From: Saccharothrix ecbatanensis
GTDB lineage: Bacteria; Actinomycetota; Actinomycetes; Mycobacteriales; Pseudonocardiaceae
DNA length: 64,000 nt
Direction: 5' to 3'
Assembly: GCF_014205015.1 (NCBI RefSeq)
Contig: NZ_JACHMO010000001.1
Location: forward strand, 806,001 to 870,000
In this document: positions 10,966-32,848 of the stretch, piece after piece
Position numbering within the stretch: the first letter of the stretch is position 1
How the letters are laid out: each line of letters opens with the position of its first letter
Made by a program: the position numbers and the translations under genes
Notes under the pieces: generated by a model
What the model saw: the letters and a program-made list of their open reading frames with translations, nothing else
What the model was told of the DNA's origin: nothing
Database searches by the model: none

Positions 10966-10985
10966 CGATCGTCCACGGGTTTCCG

Positions 10986-10997
10986 CGAAAACTTTCG
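10986..10997. promoter_or_regulatory. CGAAA-type LacI operator, CGAAAACTTTCG
   Basis: CGAAAACTTTCG shares AAACTTTCG with the 9859 site. It lies 21 bp after the LacI stop and upstream of the GH9 gene. Confidence 0.5.
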
Positions 10998-11050
10998 AGC
11001 CGGTTTGCCTGGCGTCAGTCTCGGGCCGATCCGGTCCAGGCGCGGTCGAA

Positions 11051-11063
11051 GTTAGCGATAACA
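11051..11063. promoter_or_regulatory. Second AraR-like operator, GTTAGCGATAACA
   Basis: GTTAGCGATAACA repeats the core of the 9718-9733 palindrome exactly. Two identical sites about 1.33 kb apart, on either side of the LacI gene, could allow DNA looping as in other LacI systems. Confidence 0.6.
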
Positions 11064-11159
11064 TCCGCCATTTCCGCTGATTGGACTGCGGTCGCCAGGA
11101 GAGGCGGCGACGGCCGTCGACGTCCTTTTGTTGTGCTCGAATTCTTTGACGTTACCGCC

Positions 11160-11173
11160 TGGGAGCGTTCCCA
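11160..11173. promoter_or_regulatory. CebR-type operator 1, TGGGAGCGTTCCCA
   Basis: TGGGAGCGTTCCCA differs by one base from the 14-bp CebR palindrome TGGGAGCGCTCCCA known from Streptomyces cellulose and cello-oligosaccharide genes. It lies 175 bp before the GH9 start. Confidence 0.8.
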
Positions 11174-11260
11174 GGGTTCGTTGCGAAATTTTCTCGCTGT
11201 GGAGAGAACGTTGACCAGAACACGCCTGGTGGTTCACCATCAGAGCCGAAGGCGCTCTTC

Positions 11261-11274
11261 TGGGAGCGCTCCCG
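11261..11274. promoter_or_regulatory. CebR-type operator 2, TGGGAGCGCTCCCG
   Basis: TGGGAGCGCTCCCG matches the CebR consensus at 13 of 14 positions and lies 74 bp before the GH9 start. CebR releases its sites on cellobiose or cellotriose. No cebR gene is in this window, so the regulator must be encoded elsewhere. Confidence 0.85.
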
Positions 11275-11347
11275 GTCCGCAACACTGTCGTTCTGGATCG
11301 AGAACGTGTCGGCCAGGGTGGCGGCGTGATCCAAGGAGGATCTGTCC

Positions 11348-16908: not shown

Positions 16909-17943
16909 TCATCGCGGCGGGGCTGTGCTGGCGCGGATCACCAGTTCGGTGGTGAACATCAGGCGGTTCTGGGTGAGGGGTTCGCCTTGGCTCAGGGTGA
17001 CGATCATGGTGGTGGCCGCGGCTGCCATGTCGCTCAGCGGCTGGTGGACGGTGGTCAGCGCCGGGATCGCCCACTGGGCGGGCGGCAGGTCGTCGAAGCC
17101 CACCACGCTCAGGTCCTGCGGAATCCGGACGCCCGCTTCGTGCGCGGCCTGGTAGACGCCGAAGGCTTGGGCGTCGTTGAACGCGAAGGCGGCGGTCGGC
17201 GGGTCCTTGAGGCGCAGCAGGTCACGGCCGTGGGTGAGGCCGTCCACCACGTTGAAGTCGCCTTCACGGATGAGTTCCGGGTCGACGGGCACGTTCCCGG
17301 CGTCCAGTGCCGCGCGGTAGCCGTCGAGGCGGGCGCGGCTGGAGAGCATCTGCGACGGGCCGGTGATGGCGGCGATGCGCCGGTGGCCGAGGTCGAGCAG
17401 GTGGCGGGTGGCGGTCAGGCCACCGCTCCAGTTGCTGGTGCCCACTGACGGGTAGTCGTGCTCCGGGTCGTTGGTCGGATCCACGAGGACGAACGGGATC
17501 CCGCGGGCGGCCAGCTGTTCCTGCTGGGCCCGTGTCGGGCCGGAGAAGACGGTGATCACGCCGGCCGGCTTGCGGGTCAGGACGCCTTCGATCCAGGTAC
17601 GCCCGGGTGTGTGCCTGCCGTGCAGTTCGGTGACCACGACGGCGAGCTCGTTCTCGCTCGCCACCCGCTCGACGCCCTTGATCACCTCCATGGCGTAGGC
17701 GCCTTCGAGCTCGTGCAGGACGATCTCGACCAGCGTGGCCCGGTTCTGCTTCTTCTGCCTGCGGTAGCCGTGCTCGCGGATCACGTTCTCCACCAAGGCC
17801 CGCGTGTCCGGGGCGACCTCCGCGCGTCCGTTGACGACCTTGGACACGGTGGCGGTGGAGACCCCGGCCAGCTCGGCGATGCGAGCGATGGTCGCACCCC
17901 CGCGCTCGACACTTTTGGCCGACGGGTGGCTGGTCGAGGTCAT
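16909..17943 (-). CDS. LacI-family regulator divergent from the GH10 xylanase
   Basis: The 344-residue protein carries the HTH ARIAELAGVSTATVSKVVNG and a sugar-binding domain (NWSGGLTATRHLLDLGHRRI, PQDLSVVGFDDLPPAQW). The ATG at 17943 is chosen because it begins a normal-length N-terminus; an ATG 54 bp upstream would put the start over the 17974-17985 operator. It is divergent from the GH10 gene with 247 bp between. That gap holds at least two CGAAA-type half-palindromes, so this protein probably represses both the xylanase and itself until a xylo-oligosaccharide binds. Confidence 0.88.
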   Translation of the reverse strand: MTSTSHPSAKSVERGGATIARIAELAGVSTATVSKVVNGRAEVAPDTRALVENVIREHGYRRQKKQNRATLVEIVLHELEGAYAMEVIKGVERVASENELAVVVTELHGRHTPGRTWIEGVLTRKPAGVITVFSGPTRAQQEQLAARGIPFVLVDPTNDPEHDYPSVGTSNWSGGLTATRHLLDLGHRRIAAITGPSQMLSSRARLDGYRAALDAGNVPVDPELIREGDFNVVDGLTHGRDLLRLKDPPTAAFAFNDAQAFGVYQAAHEAGVRIPQDLSVVGFDDLPPAQWAIPALTTVHQPLSDMAAAATTMIVTLSQGEPLTQNRLMFTTELVIRASTAPPR

Positions 17944-17973
17944 GGCCGGAGTGTAGTGCCAGGGCCACCGCGG

Positions 17974-17985
17974 CCGAATGTTTCG
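17974..17985. promoter_or_regulatory. CGAAA-type operator upstream of the LacI gene, CCGAATGTTTCG
   Basis: CCGAATGTTTCG is an imperfect copy of the CGAAA/TTTCG dyad. It lies 31 bp before the LacI start at 17943, a position fit for autoregulation. Confidence 0.5.
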
Positions 17986-18004
17986 ACTGGCGGCCATGAA
18001 CGTC

Positions 18005-18049: not shown

Positions 18050-19588
<1,539 letters not shown>

Positions 19589-19688: not shown

Positions 19689-20324
19689 TCAGGGTTGCAC
19701 GGTGAAGGTGTAGCTCTTCTGGCCGGTGGTGACCGAACCGCCGGCCGCCTTGGTCGCGGTGACCTCGAAGACGGCGGTGTAGGTGCCGGCCGCCTCGAAC
19801 GCCCAGTTGGCGTGGGCGTGGGTGTTGACCGCCAGGTTCCGGCTGTCGGGCAGCCCGTTGCCGCTGTCGAACCACACGCTCACGGACCCGCCGAAGCCGG
19901 TGGTGTAGACGCTGAAGTCGGCGGGGCCCGTGACCGAGACGAGCTTCACGGTCACCGTGTTGTTCAGCAGCACACCGCTGGGGACACCTCCGGTGTCGAG
20001 GCCCGGCCACAGGATGCCGCTGACCTGGTTCTGCGGCAGGACCCAGAACGTCGATCCCGGTGCGCCGAGGAACGAGTAGGCGCTGCCGGACGGGACGGTC
20101 GACTTGCTCGCCGACACCGCGTTGAGCGTCACGGTCGACGGGTCGCGGTCGACGGCCGGTGACACGGTGCTGTCGCGGAGGTCGAGCGTGAGCGTGCTGC
20201 CGGTCCAGTCGATGTCGATGGCGTCGACGTGGCCGGAGGAGATGGTCACGGCCGCGTGCGCCGTTCCCGTGGTGAGCAGGGCGAGCCCGGCGGCGAGTGC
20301 GGCGGCGGTGAGGCGGGCGATCAT
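19689..20324 (-). CDS. Secreted choice-of-anchor M domain protein
   Basis: The 211-residue protein is a signal peptide (ending TAHAAV, about residue 25) plus one choice-of-anchor M domain (the P_Ac_wall family of actinobacterial surface proteins). Family landmarks are SSGHVDAID near the start, YSFLGAPGSTFWVLPQ, LWPGLDTGG, DSGNGLPDS and NTHAHANWAFEAAGTY. It ends at the domain, with no sortase signal or membrane anchor. The start ATG overlaps the stop of the upstream gene (ATGA), so the two form an operon under the Zur box at 21032. The conserved H-x-H-x-N-W and GHVD histidines fit metal binding, which is inference. Confidence 0.85.
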   Translation of the reverse strand: MIARLTAAALAAGLALLTTGTAHAAVTISSGHVDAIDIDWTGSTLTLDLRDSTVSPAVDRDPSTVTLNAVSASKSTVPSGSAYSFLGAPGSTFWVLPQNQVSGILWPGLDTGGVPSGVLLNNTVTVKLVSVTGPADFSVYTTGFGGSVSVWFDSGNGLPDSRNLAVNTHAHANWAFEAAGTYTAVFEVTATKAAGGSVTTGQKSYTFTVQP

Positions 20325-20968
20325 CGGTTCACCTTGAAGGAGTAGGTGGCGGGCGCGGAAGTGACGCGTTCGCCGGTCGCGGCGAGGGTGCCGGTGGCGC
20401 GGACGGTGACGCTGTAGCGGCCGGCCGCCTCGAACGCCCAGTTGGCGTGCAGGTGGCTGCCGGCCGTCAGGTCGATGCTGTCGGGCAGTCCGTTGCCGCT
20501 GTCGACCAGCACGTTCGGCGCGCCGACCGCGTCGGTGGTGAAGATGCTGAAGTCGTCGGGGCCGCAGACGCCCACGACGCGCAGGCGGAGCGAGCCGTCG
20601 ACGAAGACGCCGGGCTCCACCTCCTCCGTGGCGATGCCCGGCCACAGCAGGTTCGGGTCGTCGATCTCGGGCAGCACCCAGACCGGTGCGCCGGGTGCGC
20701 CGAGGAAGGCGTAGGCGGGGTCGGCGGGCACGGTGGTCTTCGCCGCGGACTTGGCGACCAGCAGGACTTCGGACGGGGCGTACTCGACGTCGGCGGTCTC
20801 GTCGTGGACGTGCAGGTCGAACTCGCCGCCCTCGTAGGCGACGCCGAAGACGTCGACGTGCCCGGTGTCGATCGGGACGACCGGTGCGGCGTTCGTGGGT
20901 GCGGCGACGAGGCCGGACAGGCCGGTCACCGCGGTCATGAGCAAGGCGATGCGTGCAGTCGTGCGCAA
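20321..20968 (-). CDS. Secreted choice-of-anchor M domain protein, first gene of Zur-box operon
   Basis: The 215-residue protein has a signal peptide (to about residue 27) and one choice-of-anchor M domain: DTGHVDVFG, YAFLGAPGAPVWVLPE, LLWPGIAT, DSGNGLPDS and SHLHANWAFEAAGRY. It ends directly after the domain, so it is probably released or held by partner proteins. The start read here is TTG at 20968, with GGAG about 11 nt before it. A Zur-like palindrome lies 64 bp upstream, which predicts expression only when zinc is low. Together with the downstream paralogue it would add soluble copies of a domain that is also anchored to the surface by the neighbouring operon. Confidence 0.83.
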   Translation of the reverse strand: MRTTARIALLMTAVTGLSGLVAAPTNAAPVVPIDTGHVDVFGVAYEGGEFDLHVHDETADVEYAPSEVLLVAKSAAKTTVPADPAYAFLGAPGAPVWVLPEIDDPNLLWPGIATEEVEPGVFVDGSLRLRVVGVCGPDDFSIFTTDAVGAPNVLVDSGNGLPDSIDLTAGSHLHANWAFEAAGRYSVTVRATGTLAATGERVTSAPATYSFKVNR

Positions 20969-21031
20969 GGTCGGTGCACTCCATTCGTGCGGGTGGTGCG
21001 GTGCGGTCCAGGAGGGCCGTGCCAGAAGAGT

Positions 21032-21052
21032 TGCACACGATTATCGTTTTCA
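21032..21052 (-). promoter_or_regulatory. Zur box upstream of the choice-of-anchor operon
   Basis: The 21-bp palindrome begins TGCACACGATTA and ends TCGTTTTCA. It matches an actinobacterial Zur-type site (TGAAAACGAT, centre, ATCGTTTTCA) at 19 of 21 positions. On the minus strand it includes GATAAT, a possible -10, so bound Zur would block RNA polymerase. Confidence 0.85.
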
Positions 21053-21102
21053 GTACGGCCGAACGGTCCACTTCCCATGATGTGGGAGTCGGCATTCGGT
21101 GG

Positions 21103-21960
21103 TCAGCCACCTACCGGTGCGCGTCCCCGATGGGCGGACAGGGCCGTGAGCAGCGCCAGGTCGGTGCGCCGTCCCGCCCACGCGGTGTCGGCGGGATCGA
21201 GTAGGCGGGTCCAGGCCGCGGTGTCCTCCTCGGTCAGGAACCGGCGTGCCCGGTCGACGCGGGCCGCGAGCTCGGTGAGGACGACGGCGTGCACGTGCTC
21301 CGGCAGCGGGGCGGGCACGTCCACCAGCGCGCTGCGGCTGGTGACCCCGACCAGGCCGGCGTCGGACAGCAGGTCCACCCACCCCCTGGTCTGGCGCGCC
21401 TGACCAGGGGGGCTGTGGAACCAGTCGGCGAACCAGCGGCTGTGCGCCTCGTCCAGGCGCGTCTCCAGCCCGGGTGGTCCGACGCCCACGTCCCACGGCA
21501 GGCAGCGAGTGGGCAGTCCGCCTTCGGCCACGCAGAGCACCCCGCCTGGCCGCAGCAGGCCGGCGAGGTCGGCGACGGCCGCGCCCCAGTCGCGGGTGTG
21601 GTGCACGCAAGCCGCTGACCACACGGCCGACACCGTCTCCGGGAGCGGTGGCGCACCCTGCTCCAGGTCGTGCGGGACGAGTCGGACGCGGTCGGCCACA
21701 CCGGCTTCACGTGCCGATCGGGCCACCGCGTCGAGCATCGCCGGGTCGTTGTCCACCGCGTAGACCCGGCCGGTGTCGCCCACGGCCCGTGCCAGCTCGA
21801 CGGTGACCGCGCCCGCGCCGGGGCCGATGTCCGCGACCACGTCACCCGGTCGGACGTCGAGCGGTGCGAGGAGGGCCAGGTGCGCCTCCAGGTACACCGC
21901 CTCGGCCTCGGCCGGGTCGTCTGTCGATGGGCCGGTGGAGTGTTCCTCGGTGGTGTTCAT
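21103..21960 (-). CDS. SAM-dependent class I methyltransferase
   Basis: The protein of about 285 residues has a Rossmann methyltransferase core: VADIGPGAGAVTVELA (SAM-binding motif I), VYAVDNDPAML (motif II), VSAVWSAACVHHTRDW and LLRPGGVLCVAEGG. The ATG at 21960 (MNTTEEHSTG) is preferred to the one 24 bp upstream, because the latter would sit next to a Zur-like palindrome at 21973-21993. The C-terminal half is family-specific and gives no substrate. Its gene is divergent from the zinc transporter operon with two Zur-type sites in the 129-bp gap, so zinc-starvation expression is likely. The methylated target is unknown. Confidence 0.82.
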   Translation of the reverse strand: MNTTEEHSTGPSTDDPAEAEAVYLEAHLALLAPLDVRPGDVVADIGPGAGAVTVELARAVGDTGRVYAVDNDPAMLDAVARSAREAGVADRVRLVPHDLEQGAPPLPETVSAVWSAACVHHTRDWGAAVADLAGLLRPGGVLCVAEGGLPTRCLPWDVGVGPPGLETRLDEAHSRWFADWFHSPPGQARQTRGWVDLLSDAGLVGVTSRSALVDVPAPLPEHVHAVVLTELAARVDRARRFLTEEDTAAWTRLLDPADTAWAGRRTDLALLTALSAHRGRAPVGG

Positions 21961-21972
21961 CGTGGCCAGTGT

Positions 21973-21993
21973 CGCCAACGGCAATCGTTGTCA
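21973..21993 (-). promoter_or_regulatory. Degenerate Zur box before the methyltransferase gene
   Basis: Read on the minus strand the site begins TGACAACGATTGCCGTT and agrees with the Zur palindrome at about 14 of 21 positions. It overlaps a TTGACA hexamer and ends 12 bp before the methyltransferase ATG. Confidence 0.5.
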
Positions 21994-22011
21994 ACAGGGC
22001 CGGATGGCGGA

Positions 22012-22040
22012 TTGAAAACGATTGTCGTTCGTATTAAGTT
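22012..22040 (+). promoter_or_regulatory. Promoter with internal Zur box for the zinc ABC operon
   Basis: TTGAAA (22012-22017) and TAAGTT (22035-22040) are 17 bp apart. The Zur-like site, TGAAAACGATTGTCGTTC onward (22013-22033), occupies the spacer. The transporter operon starts at 22090. Confidence 0.8.
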
Positions 22041-22089
22041 CGCGGTGCCCCACCGGTCCGGTGCCGGGCGTCTGGAGGTTCGAGAACAC

Positions 22090-23616
22090 ATGCGAGTGCG
22101 TGCGCCCTCACGGGCCGCCGCGTCCTTGTGCGCGGTCCTGCTCACGGTGACCGCGTGCACCTCGGCGGGCGGAACAAGCGACGGTGACGGCCTGTCCGTG
22201 GTCGCCACCACCGAGATCCTCGCCGACCTGGTCCGCAACGTCGGGGGAGAGCGCGTCCGGGTGGACTCGCTGGTGCCGCCCGGCGGCGACCCGCACTCCT
22301 ACGAGCCCACGCCCGCCGACGCGAAGAAGGTGGCCGCGGCGGACGTGACGTTCACCAACCACCTGCTGCTGGAGGAACAGCGGCTCATCAAGGCCATCGA
22401 CGCCAACGCGCGCGAGGGGACTCCGAACGTCTCGCTGGCCGAGGCGTCGGAGACCTATGGCGCGCACGTGATCCCGTTGGTGGAGAACGTCGGGCTCGAC
22501 GTGCTGTGGTTCGGGCTGCGGGTGCGCGGCGACGGCAAGCAGCGCGGCGCCACGCGCACCTCCGAAGTGCGGCTGACGGCGACCGCCGTGGACGGTCCGG
22601 GCAGGCTGGTGGCCTACCTGACCGAGTCCCTCGGCAAGCCGGTGGTGTACTTCGACTCCGGCGACGGTCTGTCCGATGTGGACTCGACCACGTTGCCGCC
22701 CGCCGCGCACACCCACCTCAACTGGGCGTTCACCGCCCCCGGCACCTACCGGCTGACGATGCGCGCGTCGCTGCTCAACGGCGTTGACGAGGTGGCGCTG
22801 GGCGAGGGCGTCTTCACGTTCGCGGTGGGCGTCGACCCGACCGGCATCGCGGGGACAGTGCTGGGCGAGGGGCACACGGACCTGACGGTCGACCTGGACA
22901 CCGGCGAGCTGTACACGTTCAACGACCGCGCCGGCGGCGCCACCCAGGAGGTCGTGCGCGCCGCGGACGCCGTGATCGAGGTGCCGAACAAGGCGATCAC
23001 CACAGTGCCGGACGACGCGCGGTTCGCGTTCCTCGGCGTGCCCGGCGCCTCGGTGCACCAGCTACCGCAAGCGGTGCTGGGCAAGCACGTGCACGGCGAG
23101 ATCGACCCGCACCTGTGGCAGGACGTGCGCAACGGCCGTGCCTACGCCGAACTGATCCGCGACACGCTGCGCGCCGCCGACCCCGACGGCGCCGCGGACT
23201 ACGACCGCAACGCCCGCGACTACACCGCCCGGCTCGACGAGCTGGACGCGCAGGTCCGCGCCACCGTGGCGGCCGTTCCACGCAACCGCCGCCACCTGGT
23301 CACCACGCACGACGGGTTCGGCTACTTCGCCAGCGCCTACGAGATGACCGTGGCCGGGTTCGTGGTGCCCAATCCCGCGCAGGAACCCAGCGTCGAGGAC
23401 GTGCGCAAGCTGACCGAGACCGTCCGCAACCTGAAAGTGCCCGCCGTCTTCATGGAACCCAACCTCGCCCAACGCGGCTCGGTGCTCACCCAGGTCGCCC
23501 GCGACCAGGGCGTCCAGGTGTGCCTGCTCTACGGCGACTCCTTCGACGAGAACGCCCGCAGCTACGCGGACATGATGCGCCACAACGCGGAGGAGATCGC
23601 CCGGTGCCTCGCCTGA
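22090..23616 (+). CDS. Zinc-type ABC substrate-binding lipoprotein with inserted, permuted choice-of-anchor domain
   Basis: The 508-residue protein is a ZnuA/TroA-like cluster A-I binding protein split in two. Residues 1-130 hold the lipobox (LLTVTAC, Cys23) and first lobe, with ligand His69 in GGDPHSYEPTP. Residues about 336-508 hold HGEIDPHLWQDV (His341), THDGFGYFASAYEM (His407) and YGDSF (Asp483). Between them, about 131-330, sits a choice-of-anchor domain in swapped order: its second half (DGPGRLVAYL, AHTHLNWAF) comes first, then its first half (GHTDLTVDL, FAFLGVPGASVHQLPQ). It matches the 'anchored repeat-type ABC transporter, substrate-binding' family. GGAGG precedes the ATG, and the promoter carries a Zur box. 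Confidence 0.9.
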   Translation: MRVRAPSRAAASLCAVLLTVTACTSAGGTSDGDGLSVVATTEILADLVRNVGGERVRVDSLVPPGGDPHSYEPTPADAKKVAAADVTFTNHLLLEEQRLIKAIDANAREGTPNVSLAEASETYGAHVIPLVENVGLDVLWFGLRVRGDGKQRGATRTSEVRLTATAVDGPGRLVAYLTESLGKPVVYFDSGDGLSDVDSTTLPPAAHTHLNWAFTAPGTYRLTMRASLLNGVDEVALGEGVFTFAVGVDPTGIAGTVLGEGHTDLTVDLDTGELYTFNDRAGGATQEVVRAADAVIEVPNKAITTVPDDARFAFLGVPGASVHQLPQAVLGKHVHGEIDPHLWQDVRNGRAYAELIRDTLRAADPDGAADYDRNARDYTARLDELDAQVRATVAAVPRNRRHLVTTHDGFGYFASAYEMTVAGFVVPNPAQEPSVEDVRKLTETVRNLKVPAVFMEPNLAQRGSVLTQVARDQGVQVCLLYGDSFDENARSYADMMRHNAEEIARCLA

Positions 23617-24407
23617 TCCAGGCCCTGCTCGCCACCGCCGCGGCGTTCCTGCTCGTGCAGCCGGTCGCGCACGCCGAGGCCACGGTCGTCATCGCCGACG
23701 GCCACGTGGACCTCGGTCCCCGTCTGGTCGACGGCGAGTGGATCCTCCAGCTCCGCGACGACACCGGTGACGGGCCGGTGTGGCGGGATCCCGCCGACGT
23801 CGTGCTCCAGGTGGCGGACGTGGCCAAGGCCACCGTTCCCGAGGATCCCGCCTACGCGTTCCTCGGCACGCCGGGCGCCGACATCTGGGTGCTGCCGCAG
23901 GTGCAGGACCAGCGGGTGGTGTGGCCCGGGTGGAACACCCAGGACCCGAGCATCGCCGAAGTCGTGGGCCGCGAGGTGGACTGGCGGCTGCACGGCGTCG
24001 AGGGGCCCGGTCGCTTCGAGCTGTTCCTCACCGGCAACTTCGGCACGCCGGAGACGATCTTCAGCAGCGAGCGGCCCTACCCGCAGGAGACCGGCGTCGA
24101 GGCGGGCACCCACGTGCACGGCAACTGGGTGTTCACCGCGCCCGGCGCCTACTCGCTGGACGTGGAGATGGCCACCGCCGACGGTCGCGGCGACCGTGCG
24201 ACGTTGCAGGTGCACGTCGGTCCGGGCGACCCGGCGATGGCGTTCACCACCACGCCGAGCGCCCCGCCGTCCGGCACGACCTCCGCGGAACGCGACGTTC
24301 AAGGCCCGCCGTGGGGCTGGATCGCGGCGGGTGGCGTGCTCGTGGCAGGGGCGGCGGCAGCGTTCGCTGTCCGGTCCCGCCGTGCCAAGAGGGGGACTGA
24401 TGACTGA
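23604..24407 (+). CDS. Membrane-anchored choice-of-anchor M protein
   Basis: The 267-residue protein has a signal peptide (VQPVAHAEA) and one domain: ADGHVDLGP, YAFLGTPGADIWVLPQ, VWPGWNTQD and GTHVHGNWVFTAPGAY. A Pro/Thr spacer and one C-terminal membrane helix (GWIAAGGVLVAGAAAAFAV) with a basic tail RSRRAKRG follow. There is no LPxTG-like signal, so it stays in the membrane next to the transporter. The GTG at 23604 overlaps the end of the binding-protein gene by 13 bp, which implies translational coupling. Confidence 0.85.
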   Translation: MPRLIQALLATAAAFLLVQPVAHAEATVVIADGHVDLGPRLVDGEWILQLRDDTGDGPVWRDPADVVLQVADVAKATVPEDPAYAFLGTPGADIWVLPQVQDQRVVWPGWNTQDPSIAEVVGREVDWRLHGVEGPGRFELFLTGNFGTPETIFSSERPYPQETGVEAGTHVHGNWVFTAPGAYSLDVEMATADGRGDRATLQVHVGPGDPAMAFTTTPSAPPSGTTSAERDVQGPPWGWIAAGGVLVAGAAAAFAVRSRRAKRGTDD

Positions 24408-25152
24408 CCTGGTGCTGGAGATCACCGGCGTGACCGTGCACCTCGGCGGCCGTGAAGTTCTGTCCGATGTGGACTTCCGGTTGCGGCGCGGTGAGCTGGT
24501 CGGCCTGATCGGGCCCAACGGCGCGGGAAAGACGACCCTGCTGCGCACCGCGCTCGGCTTGGTCCCGGTGCACCGCGGCACGGTCGTCGTCGGCGGTCGC
24601 ACGTCGCGCCAGGCCCAGGGCTCGCTCGGTTACGTGCCGCAGCGCCACGAATTCGCGTGGGACTTCCCCGTCACGGTCGAGGGCGCGGTCGCCACCGGAC
24701 GCACGCACCTGACCGGCCTGCTGCGTCGCCGCACGGCCCGTGACCGCGAAGCCGTGGCCGACGCCCTGGACCGCGTCGGCATGGCGGACCTGCGGACCCG
24801 GCCGGTCGGCGAGCTGTCCGGCGGCCAGCGGCAACGGGTGCTCGTCGCCCGCGCGTTGGCCCTGCGGCCCGAGGTGCTGCTGCTGGACGAGCCGTTCACC
24901 GGCATCGACGCCCCCACCCAGGAGCTGCTGAGCACGTTGCTGACCGAACTGCGGGACGAAGGCGTGGCGGTGCTCATGACCACCCACGACCTCGCTGCCG
25001 CCACCGCGTTGTGCGGCCGACTGTGCCTGCTCAACCGCACCGTCGTCGCCGACGACGAACCGGCGGCGCTGGCAGACACCGACATCTGGCTGCGCACCTT
25101 CGGCCTGGACCGGGCCGAGCAGCTGCTCAAGGCGTTGGGGGTGGCGGGGTGA
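24400..25152 (+). CDS. ABC transporter ATP-binding protein (anchored-repeat metal transporter)
   Basis: The 250-residue ATPase has a Walker A ([11 protein letters not shown]), Q-loop region (GYVPQRHEFAWDFP), signature LSGGQRQRV, Walker B (VLLLDEPF) and the switch His in MTTHDLAAA. The sequence type is that of ZnuC/MntB metal transporters. It overlaps the preceding gene by 8 bp and shares the GTGA junction with the permease gene. It powers uptake of the metal, most likely Zn(II), delivered by the 22090 lipoprotein. Confidence 0.93.
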   Translation: MTDLVLEITGVTVHLGGREVLSDVDFRLRRGELVGLIGPNGAGKTTLLRTALGLVPVHRGTVVVGGRTSRQAQGSLGYVPQRHEFAWDFPVTVEGAVATGRTHLTGLLRRRTARDREAVADALDRVGMADLRTRPVGELSGGQRQRVLVARALALRPEVLLLDEPFTGIDAPTQELLSTLLTELRDEGVAVLMTTHDLAAATALCGRLCLLNRTVVADDEPAALADTDIWLRTFGLDRAEQLLKALGVAG

Positions 25153-26045
25153 CCGCGTTCCTGGAGTTCCTGACCGCGCCGTGGGAGTACGACTTCTGGC
25201 GCCGCGCGCTGCTGGTGGCGTTGATGTCGGGCGTGGTCTGCGGCGTGATCGGCAGCCACGTCGTGCTGCGCGGCATGGCGTTCATCGGCGACGCCGTCTC
25301 GCACGCGGTCTTCCCCGGCATCGCGGTCGCCTTCGTGCTCGGCACCAACCTGGTGCTGGGCGGGGCGGTCGCGGGCGTGATCACCGCGTTGCTGATCGCG
25401 GTGTTCTCGCAGAACCGCAGGCTCAAGGAGGACTCGGTGATCGGGATCTTCTTCGCCGCCTCCTTCGGGCTGGGCATCGTCATCCTCAGCACCGCGCCGG
25501 GATACGGCGGCTCGCTGGAGTCGTTCCTGTTCGGCTCGATCCTGGGCATCAGCGATTCCGACGTGCTCTCGGTCGCGGTGATCGGCGCGGGGGTGCTGCT
25601 GTGCACGGCGCTGTTCAACAGCCGCTTCGTGGCCACGACGCTGGACCGGGAACAGGCCCGCGCGGTCGGACTCCCGGTGTTCTGGCTGGACGTGGCGCTG
25701 CACGTCATGGTGACCCTGGCCATCGTCATCTCGTTGCAGGCCGTGGGCAACATCCTCGTGCTCGCCCTGCTCGTCACCCCCGCCGCGGCGGCCCGCCTGC
25801 TCACCGACCGCCTCGGCGTGATGATGCTGCTGGCGCCGCTGATCGGCGCGGGCGGCAGCGTGCTCGGCCTCTACCTGTCCTACGCGCTCGACCTGGCTGC
25901 CGGCGGACTCATCGTGCTCACCCTCACCGCGGTCTTCCTGCTGTGCTGGCTCTTCGCGCCGCGCCACGGCCTGCTCACCCGGACCAGCCGGACCGCCGTC
26001 CCCGCCACCGCGCTCGACACCGTGCTCGCCGAGGAGAAGTCGTGA
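25149..26045 (+). CDS. ABC transporter permease (ZnuB/TroC type)
   Basis: The 298-residue protein has about eight or nine membrane helices and the ABC-3 family features: VLRGMAFIGDAVSHAVFPG near the start, EDSVIGIFFAASFGLGIV, and LVTPAAAARLLTDRL for contact with the ATPase. The GTG start overlaps the ATPase stop (GTGA), and its own stop overlaps the next start in the same way. It forms the membrane channel of the zinc importer. Confidence 0.93.
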   Translation: MTAFLEFLTAPWEYDFWRRALLVALMSGVVCGVIGSHVVLRGMAFIGDAVSHAVFPGIAVAFVLGTNLVLGGAVAGVITALLIAVFSQNRRLKEDSVIGIFFAASFGLGIVILSTAPGYGGSLESFLFGSILGISDSDVLSVAVIGAGVLLCTALFNSRFVATTLDREQARAVGLPVFWLDVALHVMVTLAIVISLQAVGNILVLALLVTPAAAARLLTDRLGVMMLLAPLIGAGGSVLGLYLSYALDLAAGGLIVLTLTAVFLLCWLFAPRHGLLTRTSRTAVPATALDTVLAEEKS

Positions 26046-27427
26046 CCCCCACCCGGACCGGCGCGCTGCTCGGCGTGGCCGCCGCGCTGCTGATGACCGC
26101 ACCGGTCGCGATCGCCGAGCCCACACCGACCACCCCACCAGATGTGCCCACCGCGGACGCCGTGCTGGACGTGGACGCCGGCCGACTGGCACTCGACGGA
26201 CCACCCGACGCCCTCGCGGTCACCGCCGAAGCCGAACGAGTGGAACTGAGCTGGGACACCACCGCCATCGAGCCCGGCGCGGTGTTCGGGGACCGGGTCG
26301 AACTGCGCACCTCGCTGGCGAACGCGTCCGCGGTGGAAGCGCCGCACGGGAATCCGGTCACGGTCCCGGTGGCCGCGAGCGGAACGCTGAGCGTCGACGT
26401 GCCGGCGCCTGGGGAGCACCTGCTCCGCGTCGAAGCCGCCGCCCACGCGCTCGACGGCCGGCCGCTGGCCGTCGAGCGCGACTACCGGCTGGTCGTCACC
26501 GAGAAGGCCCGACCGGAGGTCGGCCGGCCTGAAGTCGAGCGGCCTGAAGCTGAGCGGCCTGAAGTCGAGCGGCCGGAAGCCGAGTTGCCCGAAGTCGCCA
26601 CCGAGTTCCGGGCACTCCCGCAACTTCCGGCCGTCGCCACGCCACAACCGCAGGTCGCCGCCGCGCAGCAGCCGCCAACGGCCACCGGCCGGGTCACCCT
26701 GGACCGCGGCCACGTCGACGCCGTCGCGCTCCGCCTGCTGCCGGACGGTCTGCACGTCCAGGTCAAGGACGGCACCGCCACCGGCGTCACGACCTGGCGC
26801 GAACCCGCGGACGTCGAGTTCCGCGTCACGGCCGCCGCGCGCACCGAACTGCCGGCGCAACCGGCGCTGTCCTTCCTCGGCGGCGCGGGCAAGCAGGTGT
26901 TCCTGCTGCCGCAGACCCAGCGGGCCGACCTGCTGTGGACCGGCTGGAACACCGAGGAACTGCGCCCGGCCGAGGTGTCGGGCCCGGTGACGTGGACGCT
27001 GACCGCGGTCGACGGGCCGGGTGCTTTCGGCCTGTTCACCACCGGCTCGTTCGGCGCGCCGGAGATCATCTTCAACAACACCGACGGCCTGCCGGACACC
27101 CTCTCCGTCCCGCTCGGCACCCACGCGCACGCCAACTGGGTGTTCGCCGAACCCGGCCGCTACCAGCTCACCTTCGCTGTCACCGCGCCTGGGACCGTCG
27201 GCACGCTGACCGACACGGAGACCCTCACGTTCGTCGTCGGCGACGGCGCCCCGGTCCCACCGCAGCAGCCGGACGACACCGGCCGGCAGACCGGCACCCC
27301 GAACCGCCTGGCGTCCACCGGTCCCGCTGCACTGCCCGCCACTGCCGGTCTCGCGCTCGTCCTGGTCGTGACGGGCGCCGCCGCGCTCGTGCTCGCCCGC
27401 CGCCGCCCCGCCAAGGAGAACCCGTGA
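26042..27427 (+). CDS. Sortase-anchored choice-of-anchor M protein with RPE repeats and LASTG signal
   Basis: The 461-residue surface protein has a signal peptide (VAIAEP). An N-terminal sandwich (about 38-155) looks like a worn copy of the domain without its histidines. A charged repeat of RPEVE/RPEAE units follows (about 156-185). A complete choice-of-anchor M domain covers about 225-400 (DRGHVDAVAL, LSFLGGAGKQVFLLPQ, LLWTGWNTEE, GTHAHANWVFAEPGRY). The C-terminus has LASTG, a hydrophobic helix and RRRPAKE, a class E sortase signal (LAxTG), so it should be linked to peptidoglycan. No sortase gene is nearby. GTGA overlap links it to the permease gene. Confidence 0.85.
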   Translation: MTPTRTGALLGVAAALLMTAPVAIAEPTPTTPPDVPTADAVLDVDAGRLALDGPPDALAVTAEAERVELSWDTTAIEPGAVFGDRVELRTSLANASAVEAPHGNPVTVPVAASGTLSVDVPAPGEHLLRVEAAAHALDGRPLAVERDYRLVVTEKARPEVGRPEVERPEAERPEVERPEAELPEVATEFRALPQLPAVATPQPQVAAAQQPPTATGRVTLDRGHVDAVALRLLPDGLHVQVKDGTATGVTTWREPADVEFRVTAAARTELPAQPALSFLGGAGKQVFLLPQTQRADLLWTGWNTEELRPAEVSGPVTWTLTAVDGPGAFGLFTTGSFGAPEIIFNNTDGLPDTLSVPLGTHAHANWVFAEPGRYQLTFAVTAPGTVGTLTDTETLTFVVGDGAPVPPQQPDDTGRQTGTPNRLASTGPAALPATAGLALVLVVTGAAALVLARRRPAKENP

Positions 27428-29085
27428 CCACCCCGACCCGCGTGAGAGCCGCGGTTGCCGCCTTCGCGGTCGCTGGTCTCGCCGCGCTGTCCCTCACCCC
27501 GGCCCTGGCCGTCGAGACCACGACCGTCGTCGACGTGGGGCACGTGGACCTGCTCGCGCCGGTCGTCGTCGGCGGCGCGTTGGACATCCGCTACAAGGAC
27601 GGCAACACCACTCCGCCGACGGTCCGCGACCCCGAACAGGTCGTCACCCACGTCAAATCCGAGTCGTACATCGAGGTGCCCGAGAACCCCGAGTACGCGT
27701 TCCTCGGCCCGGTGGGCAGCAGTTTGTGGCACATCCCCGAGGTGCAGATCCCCGAAATCGTCTGGGCGGGGTGGAACACCGAGGGCCTGACGCCCGACCA
27801 GGTCGACCCGGACTCGGTGCGCTGGACCCTCGACGCGGTCGGCGGCGACCTGCCCGGCAGTCCCGCACCCGGCAACCTCACCGTGTTCCAGACCGGACCG
27901 GTCGGCGAACCCCTGCCCCGCGTGTTCGACACCGCGCTGCCGCTGCCGCAGCAACATCCGCTGGTGCTGGGCACCCACGCGCACGCCAACTGGATGTTCA
28001 ACGCCGAAGGCGTCTACCGGCTCACCGTCACCGTCACGGCCACCACCCCCGACGGATCGCCGTTGCGCGACACCACGACCTATGCGATCGCCGTCGGCGC
28101 GGTCGATCCCACGACCGTGAAGCCCGGCACGGGTACAGATCCCTCCACGACGACGACCACGACGACTGACACGACGACGACCACCACAGGTGCGACCACC
28201 ACGACCACGGGCACGACGACCACCACCGCGCCACCCACGTCGTGCGTGGTCCTCAACGACGGCCACGTCGATCTCATCGCCCCACGCGTTCTCGACGGCG
28301 GCTTGAACACCCGGGTCAAGGACGGCACTGCCGGGCCTGACCGGGCCGTGTGGCGCGATCCGGCCGACGTCGTGCTGCACGTGGTCCCCGCCGCGCGCAA
28401 CACCGTGCCCAACGACCCCGCCTACTCGTTCCTGGGCACACCGGGGGCACCGGTCTGGATCATCCCGCAGACCCAGATCCCCGGCATCGTGTGGGCCGGC
28501 TGGAACACCGAGTCCCTCAGCCCGCAGGACGTCGCCGGCCGCGTCGACCTGCGGGTGACCGGGGTGGACGGTCCGGGCCGCCTCGGTGTCTTCCTCAGTG
28601 ACATCACCCCCGTCCTGCTGGTCGACTCGGGAGACGGCCTGCCCGACACCATCGTCGTCCCGCTCGGCACCCACGCGCACGCCAACTGGGCCTTCGGCGC
28701 GGAGGGCACCTACCGGATCACCATCGAGGTAGCCGCGACCCTCGCCGACGGCCGCACGGTCGCCGACAGCGACGTCTTCACCATCGCCGTCGGCGACGTC
28801 GACCCCACGGACAACGGAGCCTGCGCACCCCCGAGCACGAGCACCACGACCTCCGCCGGCACGACCTCCGCCGGCACGACCTCCGCCGGCACTACCTCCG
28901 CCGGCACGACGTCCGCCGGCCCGGTCCCGACCACTTCGCCGGCGGCGTCCGCGCCCAAGCCGAAGGGCCTGGCCTCGACCGGCGTCGGAGGTGTGGGCAC
29001 GGCCGTGCTGCTCGCCGCGCTGCTGACCACCGCGGGCGTCGCGGTGCTCGTCCTCACCCGACGCAGGCGGACCCACGGCGGCTGA
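27424..29085 (+). CDS. Sortase-anchored protein with two choice-of-anchor M domains and LASTG signal
   Basis: The 553-residue protein has a signal peptide (TPALAVE) and a first domain at about 36-225 (DVGHVDLLA, YAFLGPVGSSLWHIPE, VWAGWNTEG, GTHAHANWMFNAEGVY). A Thr-rich linker follows. The second domain, about 275-460, contains NDGHVDLIA, YSFLGTPGAPVWIIPQ, DSGDGLPDT and GTHAHANWAFGAEGTY. A second linker of five SAGTT units leads to LASTG, a membrane helix and TRRRRTHGG. The LAxTG ending again points to a class E sortase. It is the last gene of the six-gene operon and should project the domains furthest from the wall. Confidence 0.87.
   Translation: MTTPTRVRAAVAAFAVAGLAALSLTPALAVETTTVVDVGHVDLLAPVVVGGALDIRYKDGNTTPPTVRDPEQVVTHVKSESYIEVPENPEYAFLGPVGSSLWHIPEVQIPEIVWAGWNTEGLTPDQVDPDSVRWTLDAVGGDLPGSPAPGNLTVFQTGPVGEPLPRVFDTALPLPQQHPLVLGTHAHANWMFNAEGVYRLTVTVTATTPDGSPLRDTTTYAIAVGAVDPTTVKPGTGTDPSTTTTTTTDTTTTTTGATTTTTGTTTTTAPPTSCVVLNDGHVDLIAPRVLDGGLNTRVKDGTAGPDRAVWRDPADVVLHVVPAARNTVPNDPAYSFLGTPGAPVWIIPQTQIPGIVWAGWNTESLSPQDVAGRVDLRVTGVDGPGRLGVFLSDITPVLLVDSGDGLPDTIVVPLGTHAHANWAFGAEGTYRITIEVAATLADGRTVADSDVFTIAVGDVDPTDNGACAPPSTSTTTSAGTTSAGTTSAGTTSAGTTSAGPVPTTSPAASAPKPKGLASTGVGGVGTAVLLAALLTTAGVAVLVLTRRRRTHGG
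28846..28920 (+). repeat. Five tandem 15-bp coding repeats (SAGTT linker)
   Basis: Five adjacent copies of ACGACCTCCGCCGGC occur; the fourth has ACTACC and the fifth ACGACG. They encode the TSAGT-type linker. Near identity suggests recent slippage, so copy number may vary between strains. Confidence 0.9.
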
Positions 29086-29137: not shown

Positions 29138-30292
29138 TCAGCGCTTCAGCAGGCGTCTCGGGAGCGGGACGAAGTGCTCGTGGGCGTCCAGGTCGTCCCA
29201 CGCGGGCAGCGGGTCGTGAAACCGCCGCCACGCGGTCGGACCGACCGCCAGTTCGGCGTCGGTGAGCAGCGCGGGGTCGAGGCGGCGGCGGGGTTCGTCG
29301 CGGTCCAGGTCGACGCCGATGAACACCAGTTCCTGCCGCGCGGTGTGGCCGTCGAGCAACTCGCCGGGTTCGATGGTCAGCGTGGGCCCGGCCTGGGACC
29401 ACACGGCGAGCATGTGCGGACGGCTGGCGATGTGGCAGAAACCCTTGCTGCGCACGACGCCCTGCCAGTCCTCCAGCGCGGCGGCCAGCCGGGCGGGGTG
29501 GAACGGACGGTCGGCGCGGTACGTGACCGATCGGATGCCGTACTCCTCGGTCTCCGGGGTGTGCGAGCCCGCCAATTCCTCGGCCCATCCCGGTGACGTG
29601 GCCGCGGTGACCGGGTCGTAGCGGCCGGTGTCGAGCACCTCGGCCAGGCCGACCACGCCGCGGCGCGACCGGACCAGCCGGGCGTTCGGGTTGAGCTTGC
29701 GCAGCAGCCCTTCGACGGTGGCGAGCTGGTCCGGTGTGGCCAGGTCGGTCTTGTTGAGCACCAGCACGTCGGCGAACTCCACCTGGTCCACCAGGAGGTC
29801 GGAGATGCCCCGCTCGTCGCCCTCGGCGGCGGCGAGGTCGCGCTCGTCGAGCCGGTCGCCGCGTTCGAGTTCCGGCAGGAAGTTCGCGGCGTCGACCACG
29901 GTGACCATCGTGTCCAGGCGCGCGTGGTCGGACAGGCTGGTGCCGTCCTCGAACGTCCACTCGAACGTCGCGGCCACCGGCATCGGCTCGGAGATGCCGG
30001 TGGACTCGATGAGGATGGTGTCGAACCGGCCTTCGCGGGCCAGCGCGCCGACGCTTTCCAGCAGGTCTTCGCGCAGCGTGCAGCAGATGCAGCCGTTGGT
30101 CAGCTCCACCAGCCGCTCGCCGCCGCGTCCGGAGACCAGGGCGGCGTCGATGTTGACCTCGCTCATGTCGTTGACCACCACCGCCACCCGGCGTCCTTCG
30201 CGGTTGGCCAGCACGTGGTTGAGCAGTGTGGTCTTGCCCGCGCCGAGGAAGCCGGACAGCACGGTGACGGGGACGCGTGGATCGGTGGTCAT
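29138..30292 (-). CDS. COG0523/CobW-family GTPase, putative zinc metallochaperone
   Basis: The 384-residue protein has Walker [12 protein letters not shown], the metal motif CICC in [21 protein letters not shown], and the NKTDL guanine motif. A CobW C-terminal domain follows ([25 protein letters not shown]). This makes it a complete GTPase of the ZigA/YciC group, which deliver zinc to client enzymes during starvation. The ATG at 30292 follows GGAAAG. It is the last gene after the alternative ribosomal proteins, behind a strong hairpin, so it may be expressed at a lower or separately set level. Confidence 0.9.
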
Positions 30293-30313
30293 GGGTTTCT
30301 TTCCAGTAGGGGA

Positions 30314-30348
30314 CGGGTGTGCTCCGCCAGCTGAGCGGAGCACACCCG
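30314..30348 (-). terminator. Hairpin between rpsR and the COG0523 gene
   Basis: CGGGTGTGCTCCGC (30314-30327) pairs perfectly with GCGGAGCACACCCG (30335-30348) over a 7-nt loop. It stands in the 61-bp gap inside an otherwise overlapping operon. It may be a terminator, attenuator or mRNA end stabiliser. Confidence 0.65.
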
Positions 30349-30353
30349 GTCGG

Positions 30354-30596
30354 TCAACGTCCTTGGCCGGGGTAGGGGAGCAGCGCCATCTCGCGTGCGT
30401 TCTTGATGGCGGTGGTGACCTGACGCTGTTCTTGTGGCGACAGGCCGGTGACCCGGCGCGAGCGGATCTTGCCGCGGTCGGAGATGAACTTCCGCAGCAG
30501 CGCCGCGTCCTTCCAGTCCACTGTGGTCACTCCCTCCTTGCGCAGGAGGTTCACCCGGCGCTTCGGTGCGCGTTCGATCTTGGGCATCCGGCTCAC
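30354..30596 (-). CDS. rpsR: 30S ribosomal protein S18, alternative paralogue
   Basis: This 80-residue S18 contains [29 protein letters not shown] and [22 protein letters not shown]. It has no cysteines, unlike the zinc-binding form found in many actinobacteria. The start ATG overlaps the rpsN stop (ATGA). An alternative start is the Met four codons in. It is part of the zinc-sparing ribosomal operon. Confidence 0.93.
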
Positions 30597-30889
30597 CAGC
30601 TCGACTTGCTGACGCCGGGCAGTTCCCCCCGGTGCGCCATCTCGCGCAGGCGGATGCGGGACAGGCCGAACGCCCGGTTGAACGCCCGCGGGCGACCGTC
30701 CACGGCGTCACGGTTGCGCAGCCTCGTGGGACTGGCGTCACGGGGCAGCTTCCGCAACGCCCGCAGGGCCTCGTCGCGGCGCTCCGGGTCGATGCGGACG
30801 AGCTCCTTCAACTCCGCGCGACGCTCGGCGTACCGGGCGACGACCTCGCGTCGCTGCCGGTCCTTCACGATCTTGGACTTCTTGGCCAT
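30593..30889 (-). CDS. rpsN: 30S ribosomal protein S14, zinc-independent paralogue
   Basis: This 98-residue protein is the long S14 form ([20 protein letters not shown], then [14 protein letters not shown] and the [21 protein letters not shown] ending). It lacks the two CxxC pairs of the short zinc-binding S14. Start and stop overlap rpmG and rpsR, so translation is coupled. Confidence 0.95.
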
Positions 30890-31056
30890 CAGCGCTCCTC
30901 GCGGAAGTCGACGTGCTTGCGCACCACGGGGTCGAACTTGCGCAGCACCATGCGGTCGGGGTCGTTGCGGCGGTTCTTGCGGGTCACGTAGGTGTAGCCG
31001 GTGCCCGCGGTGGAGCGGAGCTTGATGATGGGCCGGACGTCGGTGGACTTGGCCAT
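30889..31056 (-). CDS. rpmG: 50S ribosomal protein L33, zinc-independent paralogue
   Basis: This 55-residue L33 reads [20 protein letters not shown] and ends [14 protein letters not shown]. It has no cysteines, so it is the C-minus form that replaces the zinc-ribbon L33 under zinc shortage. The ATG overlaps the rpmB stop by one base, and its stop overlaps the rpsN start. Confidence 0.95.
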
Positions 31057-31295
31057 CAGACCTTCACCCCCTGGCGGCGCAGGTCGGCCACCACGGACTC
31101 GATGCCTCGCTTGTCCACGGTCTTGATGCCCTTGGTCGACAGGTTCAGCACCACGGTCCGGTTCTCCGAAGGCAGCCAGTACCTGCGGCGTTGCGTGTTG
31201 GGCAGCCATCGGCGCGAGGTGCGCCGGTGTGAGTGCGAGACCTGTTTGCCGAAGCCGGGCTTGCGCCCGGTGACCTGGCAGTGCCGTGACGACAC
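31056..31295 (-). CDS. rpmB: 50S ribosomal protein L28, first gene of the zinc-sparing ribosomal operon
   Basis: This 79-residue L28 ([35 protein letters not shown], ending DLRRQGVKV) has one cysteine and lacks the CxxC pairs of the zinc form. The GTG at 31295 is chosen because it begins the conserved SSRHCQVTG and has GGAGG 4 nt before it. A Zur box lies 13 bp upstream. Confidence 0.94.
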
Positions 31296-31307
31296 GCTAC
31301 CTCCAAT

Positions 31308-31330
31308 TTGAAACGACAATCGTTTCCGTT
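31308..31330. promoter_or_regulatory. Zur box shared by the two divergent zinc-sparing operons
   Basis: The palindrome core GAAACGA-CAA-TCGTTTC lies at 31310-31326. On the plus strand TTGAAA (31308-31313) and TAGGCT (31330-31335) are 16 bp apart with the Zur core in the spacer. The predicted start of transcription falls at or near the ATG at 31343, so that mRNA may be leaderless. Confidence 0.8.
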
Positions 31331-31342
31331 AGGCTAACCCAC

Positions 31343-32437
31343 ATGGGAACCGAGGTCCTACTGGTGGCAGGTCTGGCGCAGCACGACGTCGCCGAGGAGG
31401 TCTGGCGCGCGTCACCGGGATCGGTGCTGGTCCGCCACGACCTGCGCGACCTCGCCCAGGGCGTGGTGCGCCGCTGGGTCGATGGTCGGCTGACCGTGCT
31501 CGAACTGGCACACGGGTGCGTCTCGTGCACGCTGCGCCTGGACCTCCTGCCGCTGCTGGAACGGCTGGGCGGTCGGGTGGTCGTGCACCTGGACCCGGCG
31601 CTGGAGCCGGAAGCCGTCTGCTTCGCGTTGCGCGAGGTCGACGTGCGGGTGGAAGCGGTGATCACCGTGGTGGACCGCGAGACCTGGCTCGCCGACGCGA
31701 CCGGCGAGGACACGATGCACGACCGCGGCCTTGGCGCGGCCGAAGGCGACGAGCGGACCGTGGCGCAGGTGGTCGTGGGACAGGCCGAGTTCGCCGACGC
31801 GATCGTGCTGACCGGCGCCGGTGACGATCCCGCGCTGGGCGCGGTGCTGGACCGGCTGTCCCCGCTCGCGCCACGGCGGCGCCGGGACGCGTTGGACGTG
31901 CCGGAACTCCTGGCCGCCATCCCCGATGACGCCCGCCGAGGCCGTTTCGACGACGGCTTCGGCGCCCTGCTCCACGGGCAGCCGCCACTGCGACCGGCCC
32001 ATGGCGCGGCCGTCGTCCACTTCACCGAACGGCGCCCGTTCCACCCCATGCGGCTGCACCAGGCGATCGACGTCCTGCTCGACGGCGTCGTGCGCACCCG
32101 TGGCCGGGTGTGGGTGGCCAGCCAGCCGGATGTAGCGCTGTGGCTGGAATCGGCCGGCGGCGGCCTCAACGTGGGAAACCTCGGCCCGTGGCTCGCGGCC
32201 GTGGACGACTGGTCCGAGGTGCCCGCCGAACGCCAGGCAGCCGCATCGGCGGTCTGGGACCCCTACTACGGCGACCGGTCGCAGGAACTGGTGGTCATCA
32301 CCAGGGCGGCTGCGCCGGACGAGATCACGGCGGCACTGCGCGAGGCGCTGGTGACCGACGAGGAACTGGCGCTGATCGACGAACTGGAGTTCGTCGACCC
32401 GTTCGCCGAGTGGCACGACGAGATGGAGGAATTGTGA
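31343..32437 (+). CDS. COG0523-family protein lacking the P-loop (possible ribosome-hibernation recruitment factor)
   Basis: The 364-residue protein is related to CobW/COG0523 over its length: [52 protein letters not shown] and ELVVITRAA. Three GTPase hallmarks are gone. The N-terminus reads [18 protein letters not shown] where GxxxxGKT should be, the NKxD loop is TGAGD, and CxCC has become CVSC. It therefore probably does not hydrolyse GTP. In mycobacteria a COG0523 protein encoded with the same C-minus ribosomal genes (Mrf) recruits the hibernation factor to ribosomes; a similar role is inferred here. It is divergent from rpmB across one Zur box and overlaps rpmE (GTGA). Confidence 0.75.
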
Positions 32438-32685
32438 AGCAGGGCATCCACCCCGACTACCACCCGGTGGTCTTCCAGGACCAGGCGACGGGCAAGGCGT
32501 TCCTGACCCGGTCCACGGCCACGTCGGCCCGCACGATCGACTGGGAGGACGGCAACACCTACCCGCTGATCACGGTCGACATCACGTCCGACTCGCACCC
32601 GTTCTGGACCGGCGCTCAGCGCGTGATGGACACCGCCGGCCGCGTGGAGAAGTTCAACCGCCGCTACGGCAAGAGGAACCGCTGA
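32434..32685 (+). CDS. rpmE: 50S ribosomal protein L31 type B
   Basis: This 83-residue L31 begins with GTG overlapping the previous stop ([15 protein letters not shown]). It contains [26 protein letters not shown] and ends [13 protein letters not shown]. It has no CxxC, so it is the zinc-free type B form that displaces zinc-bearing L31. Confidence 0.95.
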
Positions 32686-32686
32686 C

Positions 32687-32848
32687 ATGGCCGTCCCGAA
32701 GCGCAAGACGTCGCGCAGCAACACCCGCCACCGCCGCTCCCAGTGGAAGGCGCAGGTGCCCGACCTGGTGCCGGTCACCGCCCTCGACGGCCGCAAGTTG
32801 GCCGTGCCTCGCAGGCTCGTGGCCGCCTACCGGCGCGGACTGCTGTAA
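32687..32848 (+). CDS. rpmF: 50S ribosomal protein L32, zinc-independent paralogue
   Basis: This 53-residue protein starts [20 protein letters not shown], the L32 signature, and ends [12 protein letters not shown]. The four zinc-ribbon cysteines are absent. It lies one base after the rpmE stop. It ends the zinc-sparing block. Confidence 0.93.

Follow-up and report, generated by a model that had tools for sequence, protein, structure and literature searches.

Exported choice-of-anchor M domains and a circularly permuted copy in a putative zinc-uptake locus of Saccharothrix ecbatanensis

The subject of this work is a 64,000-nucleotide stretch of the genome of Saccharothrix ecbatanensis (assembly GCF_014205015.1, contig NZ_JACHMO010000001.1, positions 806,001 to 870,000; "the window" below), in which positions 19689-29085 encode six exported proteins that between them carry seven choice-of-anchor M domains (NF038134), as well as the ATPase and the permease of an ATP-binding cassette (ABC) transporter. 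We propose, with a probability of about 0.7, that the locus encodes a zinc-uptake system like znuAECB of Corynebacterium diphtheriae, in which zinc would be handed over to the importer through ZnuE and through a circularly permuted copy of the domain held captive in ZnuA. The locus comprises the following genes and features, all scores being profile scores in bits.

19689-20324, minus strand: free secreted single-domain protein A; domain 19698-20246; NF038134 170.5; its start overlaps the end of gene B by 4 bases
20321-20968, minus strand: free secreted single-domain protein B, leading the apparent two-gene operon; domain 20330-20872; NF038134 180.0
21033-21051, minus strand: Zur-like palindrome GAAAACGATAATCGTGTGC upstream of gene B, from the fitted-palindrome scan
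22014-22032, plus strand: Zur-like palindrome GAAAACGATTGTCGTTCGT upstream of the znuA-type gene, from the consensus and the fitted-palindrome scans
22090-23616, plus strand: ZnuA-type substrate-binding lipoprotein of an anchored-repeat ABC transporter; TIGR03772 640.4 (cut-off 350.45); NF038134 102.5, in two stretches
22393-22827, plus strand: piece 1 of the permuted insert, the C-terminal part of the domain (profile 42-184) with HTHLNW (H207, H209); start approximate, residues 106-133 being possibly native sequence of the substrate-binding protein (SBP)
22861-23073, plus strand: piece 2 of the permuted insert, the N-terminal part of the domain (profile 2-73) with GHTD (H262, D264)
23604-24407, plus strand: ZnuE-type secreted protein with one domain (23688-24194) and a C-terminal membrane segment; NF038134 192.7
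24400-25152, plus strand: ZnuC-type ATPase; TIGR03771 320 (cut-off 268.8)
25149-26045, plus strand: ZnuB-type permease; TIGR03770 382.8 (cut-off 296.8); PF00950 245
26042-27427, plus strand: wall protein 1 with one domain (26699-27238); NF038134 175.1; LASTG at 27308-27322, read from the sequence
27424-29085, plus strand: wall protein 2 with domains 27529-28095 and 28249-28791; NF038134 305.3; TIGR03773 300.7; LASTG at 28969-28983

Importer genes and exported domains

The identity of the importer is supported by the SBP, the ATPase and the permease, all of which exceed their family cut-offs, and by the gene order A-E-C-B, which is that of C. diphtheriae. The ZnuA-type lipoprotein is a cluster A-I metal SBP (PF01297) and has the SBP fold with metal ligands, its predicted pocket comprising H47, H319, H385 and D461. 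The TIGR03773 cut-off of 190.3 bits is passed by wall protein 2 and is not reached by wall protein 1 (170.1 bits) or the ZnuE-type protein (182.7 bits). The six plus-strand genes overlap successively by 4 to 13 bases, the ZnuE-type gene overlapping znuA by 13 bases provided that its GTG start is correct, and the minus-strand pair overlaps by 4 bases; the genes therefore apparently form two operons, one on each strand. The nearest named loci are those of other Saccharothrix, with lipoprotein identities of 92-93%. A search of the whole 9.69 Mb genome found no NF038134 copies outside the locus, its eight matching stretches being the seven domains described here. A methyltransferase-like gene without a family above cut-off lies between the free pair and znuA (21103-21984), and an imperfect palindrome, GGCAATCGTTGTCAAC, stands directly 5' of its start. 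Further out, by reading, lies a secreted GH10 xylanase-like protein with a cellulose-binding tail (18191-19588), with LacI-type regulators nearby (13752-14768 and 16909-17997).

All six exported proteins score above the NF038134 cut-off of 55 bits (102.5 to 305.3 bits), in the modes of attachment that a sequence-only reading of this DNA had described: in two signal-peptide proteins nothing follows the domain, a third protein is a lipoprotein, a fourth has a C-terminal membrane segment and the last two carry LASTG. The motif order claimed by that reading, GHVD or GHTD near the start and H-x-H-x-N-W near the end, was found, with GHVD, in the six canonical copies of the window and is reversed in the lipoprotein, where the domain is permuted. 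Conservation of the His residues among related copies, which it proposed to test by alignment, was borne out in 80 named loci, which had been collected by means of peptide patterns taken from the permuted region and several of which are cut by contig ends. All four residues of the putative site (H6, D8, H143 and H145) are kept in 375 of 381 full canonical copies and in 79/79 permuted ones, counts that followed the removal of 49 partial domain matches and are non-independent owing to the relatedness of the loci. Residue by residue, H6, H143 and H145 are each retained in 375 canonical copies, D8 in 380 and W148 in 381. In the six exceptions all three His are lost jointly, in one of them together with the Asp; these copies sit in multi-domain proteins of six loci (L097, L104, L112, L113, L129 and L141), and the losses in the last four, all from Micromonospora, possibly reflect one event.

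This pattern of conservation fits one putative metal site common to the domain copies. The fold of the domain is predicted to be beta-rich and sandwich-like with a four-residue site (H-x-D near the start, H-x-H near the end), the AlphaFold2 model of protein B having a mean predicted local distance difference test (pLDDT) score of 98.1. In the published AlphaFold models of the C. diphtheriae proteins the HxD and HxH residues lie close together (PMC12445094). A structural role of the metal, with the domain acting mainly as a docking module that gathers the surface proteins and ZnuA near the permease, is in our judgement quite improbable. Such a role would suit the W, G, Y and F residues near the site, which are as invariant as the ligand candidates, and the lower thermal stability reported for the His-to-Ala forms of ZnuE and ZnuG; however, high zinc ratios reduce the stability of ZnuE and ZnuF (PMC12445094 for both assays), and Zur-type control of free single-domain proteins would suit binding more than scaffolding.

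The N-terminal stretch of wall protein 1 (about 26222-26497) resembles a C-terminal half of the domain that has lost the ligands, with a profile-profile probability of 94.5 and an E-value of 8.3e-8, which is approximate because the profile alignment included two unrelated reading frames. The inclusion threshold was passed by five of eight orthologues; the window segment alone scored no higher than the best shuffle.

The permuted domain in the ZnuA-type lipoprotein

The domain copy in the lipoprotein is circularly permuted, its C-terminal part leading and HTHLNW preceding GHTD. A profile built from the six other copies of the window matches the insert as 46-182 and then as 2-73, and a scan of all rotations, made for the window insert only, raised the score from 71.6 bits unrotated to 118.3 bits at best. 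Rotation at the profile break gave a single full-length match in 79/79 other loci (median score 59.4 bits before and 103.4 bits after); since the profile pieces themselves defined the cut, this gain mostly shows the complementarity of the pieces. As we read the models, the insert has the predicted strands of the canonical domain in rotated order.

The permuted order was found in all 80 named loci, in 79 by profile and in one (L138, below the profile threshold, with an insertion within its N-piece) by eye. Among 60 relatives surveyed at the level of the genus, 14 had any match: 12, this genome included, had both pieces in the permuted order, and two (G298 and G300) had partial matches only. In the phylum survey three of 296 genomes, including this one, lay above the TIGR03772 cut-off, the other two being likewise permuted. 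The class-wide sample contained the domain in 23 of 296 genomes and the permuted ZnuA form in 22 of these 23, in 21 by profile (C-piece, then N-piece) and in one (G575, below the profile threshold) by reading; the exception (G480) has a broken match in two frames only, without the permuted form. The 79 permuted inserts form one clade in a midpoint-rooted tree (support 0.988), which makes a single origin likely. The insert could plausibly have arisen by excision from a tandem protein, as the C-half of one domain and the N-half of the next; the tree itself shows one clade only.

The insert falls between PF01297 positions 82 and 92, where the other ZnuA-type protein of the genome is unbroken; this second SBP, an uninterrupted one, is encoded at G000:C1:7853676-7854524. 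On alignment with AztC of Paracoccus denitrificans the insert lies between residues 112 and 131, N-terminal to His138. By this alignment it appears to occupy the position of the AztC D-loop (residues 117-133), which is required for zinc transfer from the chaperone AztD (PMC7463823), just before the predicted zinc ligand of ZnuA itself. A study of August 2025 described HxD/HxH motifs in C. diphtheriae ZnuE, ZnuF, ZnuG, CmrA and CmrA2, and in ZnuA "in the reverse orientation" (PMC12445094); the stems permut- and insert- are absent from its main text. A permuted domain would explain this reversal.

Putative zinc regulation signals

Zur-like palindromes lie about 60 bases 5' of both domain operons, and a third stands between adjoining divergent operons of ribosomal protein paralogues (29138-32848):

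29138-30343, minus strand: COG0523/CobW-type GTPase at the end of the ribosomal-paralogue operon; NF038288 (ZigA) 487.4 bits, below the cut-off of 600; PF02492 and PF07683
30354-31295, minus strand: ribosomal protein paralogues S18, S14, L33 (no Cys) and L28 (one Cys); Cys read from the translations, L28 start chosen by us
31309-31327, no strand assigned: Zur-like palindrome TGAAACGACAATCGTTTCC between the divergent operons, from the fitted-palindrome scan
31286-32848, plus strand: MRF-type GTPase, type B L31 and L32; NF047431 432 (cut-off 375), NF002462 142.3 and TIGR01031 39.6 bits; true start of the GTPase gene probably about 31343

With up to three mismatches, the palindrome GAAAACGANNNTCGTTTTC has 12 matches in the 9.69 Mb genome, three of them in this locus, against one for the reversed-pattern control; because it was fitted to the window's own sites, the three window matches are not independent of the pattern, and a better test comes from the reversed control and from the 80 loci. 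In these loci a degenerate form, GAAAAYGANNNTCRTTTTC, was found at 50 places with up to two mismatches, against none for the reversed control. Thirty-three of the 50 sit 60-400 bases before a gene's first domain (measured, for ZnuA, from its approximate start), in zones that make up 8.2% of the bases, and at three mismatches 78 of 124 places fall in these zones, with no control matches. A Streptomyces-type Zur consensus, TGAAAATGATTTTCA, gave five matches of at least 11/15 (two being one place read on both strands) against 0.45 expected; it was replaced by the fitted palindrome.

The genes of the divergent operons (S18, S14, L33, L28, type B L31, L32 and the MRF-type and COG0523-type GTPases) have counterparts in the Zur regulon of Streptomyces coelicolor, which lists a matching ribosomal set and a COG0523 gene (PMC6103462). 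A probable role of the locus in zinc supply is supported by the Zur-like palindromes and by the zinc-saving ribosomal genes alongside. In C. pseudotuberculosis, LPxTG proteins bearing "actinobacterial surface-anchored" domains were predicted in 2010 to be under Zur control (PMC3022926); in C. diphtheriae, zinc- and Zur-dependent repression of the matching genes was shown in 2019 (PMC6711530), and thermal-shift assays revealed a response of ZnuE and of ZnuF to zinc (PMC12445094). Together with the regulon signs in the window, these results support zinc as the substrate suggested from the sequence. Heme, a sugar, manganese or iron as the true ligand is highly improbable to us: the SBP core is structurally as close to manganese binders as to AztC, and C. 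diphtheriae cmrA adjoins the heme-exporter genes hrtBA, but the cmrA promoter is strongly zinc-repressed with no significant hemoglobin effect reported (PMC6711530 for both), and the locus here has Zur-like boxes and zinc-regulon neighbours.

Proposed hand-over and comparison with known systems

In the 80 loci, protein architectures were tallied by simple hydrophobicity and motif rules, by which 39 proteins were classed as "other" and seven had partial matches only. Free one-domain proteins number 118 and occur in 63 loci, two each in 55, and a hydrophobic signal-like stretch precedes the domain in 116 of them; wall proteins with LPxTG-like ends occur in 75 loci and membrane-anchored ones in 66. 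In the tree one group holds 113 of the 118 free copies (support 0.839), and a clade with support 0.94 holds 74 of 75 copies at the ZnuE position alongside some wall domains. Since the free pairs are widespread across loci and grouped in the tree, they appear to be a lasting component of the system in many genera. Two loci carry ZnuA-ZnuE fusions, in which permuted ZnuA and a membrane-anchored canonical domain share one reading frame:

L098 (Catelliglobosispora), 10282-12669: ZnuA-ZnuE fusion
L102 (Allorhizocola), 10165-12714: ZnuA-ZnuE fusion

On the basis of homology, regulon signs and published relatives, we hold that the locus probably encodes a zinc importer together with a dedicated set of surface zinc-binding proteins; that these proteins bind zinc we infer, as we do every hand-over step. 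Zinc starvation would release Zur, so that the ABC importer and the exported domain proteins are made. The wall-anchored and free secreted copies would catch zinc outside the cell, and membrane-bound ZnuE and the copy within ZnuA would hold it beside the permease. From a free, wall or ZnuE domain zinc would pass to the captive domain of ZnuA, from there to the nearby ZnuA pocket and on to ZnuBC. A layered relay from wall to membrane is possible, and the published C. diphtheriae genetics would back its inner steps only. We tentatively propose, giving it somewhat less than even odds, that ZnuA carries in its hand-over loop a captive, permuted copy of its own donor domain, so that transfer takes place between like sites, and that the permutation arose once and was kept across the range of the system; it may have been retained because no other order makes the site face the SBP pocket.

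The main rival is storage at the wall: the surface and free copies would be zinc stores or sinks, serving near-cell retention or buffering without passing zinc directly to ZnuA, and the insert would just raise local zinc. Alone this is rather unlikely, and it may hold alongside the hand-over reading. In a C. diphtheriae strain without the importer, expression of znuF or znuG lowered growth, the ZnuG effect requiring its three His, and the authors propose sequestration or storage alongside facilitated transport (PMC12445094). Three observations speak against a pure store: of the 23 class genomes that contain the domain, 22 also have the permuted ZnuA form; the insert is located at the position of a chaperone-docking loop; and there are ZnuA-ZnuE fusions. 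Moreover, ZnuE is encoded inside the importer operon, and loss of znuE impairs the growth of C. diphtheriae (PMC12445094).

Several observations weigh against our reading of the locus. In C. diphtheriae loss of znuF or znuG does not reduce growth and loss of znuA has only a modest effect (PMC12445094), so that organism does not depend on a strict relay by way of its wall proteins and ZnuA; deletion of the whole znuF-445 operon leads to a longer lag (same source). In Paracoccus a growth defect, and a minor one, resulted only from deletion of the D-loop of AztC (PMC7731109). In the ZnuA AlphaFold2 model (mean pLDDT 83.6) the score falls below 50 at residues 99-113 and 308-315, the junctions of insert and SBP. 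Eighteen of the 80 loci have no Zur-like box even at three mismatches, and the 80 loci, having been chosen by patterns of the permuted region, are uninformative on how often the permutation is absent, for which the genus and class surveys are informative. The His residues as putative ligands, also suggested from the sequence, have their conservation and joint loss in their favour; however, published ZnuE(3xA) still shifted with zinc, and the result for ZnuG(3xA) was unclear (PMC12445094). The statement that the function of the family was undescribed is outdated since August 2025, when that C. diphtheriae study of ZnuE, ZnuF, ZnuG and CmrA appeared.

The system is real and coherent, and its outline is already described in another genus. 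Relative to the literature searched, the features that appear new are the permutation at the D-loop position, the naturally occurring ZnuA-ZnuE fusions and the conserved pair of free secreted proteins. They bear on how zinc reaches its importer through a thick Gram-positive wall. Because related domains with the putative site are found at several layers, and one of these domains lies in the capture protein at the proposed hand-over loop, transfer of zinc from protein to protein can be tested directly. Loci found in Streptomyces, Micromonospora, Kribbella, Amycolatopsis and others extend the known range of the system.

The closest known system is that of C. diphtheriae (znuAECB with ZnuF, ZnuG, CmrA and CmrA2), which shares the order ZnuA-E-C-B, the HxD/HxH domain, the reversed ZnuA motif, membrane and LPxTG forms and Zur-type control, the latter being suggested here by Zur-like palindromes only (PMC12445094; PMC6711530). 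Unlike it, the Saccharothrix locus has two wall-protein genes that overlap the importer operon, and a free secreted single-domain pair with its own Zur-like box; free secreted copies appear not to be among the C. diphtheriae proteins that PMC12445094 describes. The anchored-repeat ABC transporter of NCBIfam (TIGR03770, TIGR03771, TIGR03772, TIGR03773, TIGR03769 and NF038134) is matched here above cut-off by SBP, ATPase and permease; the one-line descriptions of these models state neither a repeat function nor a rotation. The pneumococcal Pht proteins with AdcAII are similar in that zinc proteins of the cell surface have been proposed to supply an SBP, but their motif differs and their sequence is distinct, as told in PMC12445094. 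AztABCD of P. denitrificans has a related cluster A-I SBP with a loop before His138 for hand-over from a dedicated zinc protein (PMC7463823; PMC7731109); in contrast to the different beta fold predicted for the choice-of-anchor M domain, AztD is a beta-propeller, and the AztC loop has 17 residues where a domain of about 200 stands in the ZnuA-type lipoprotein.

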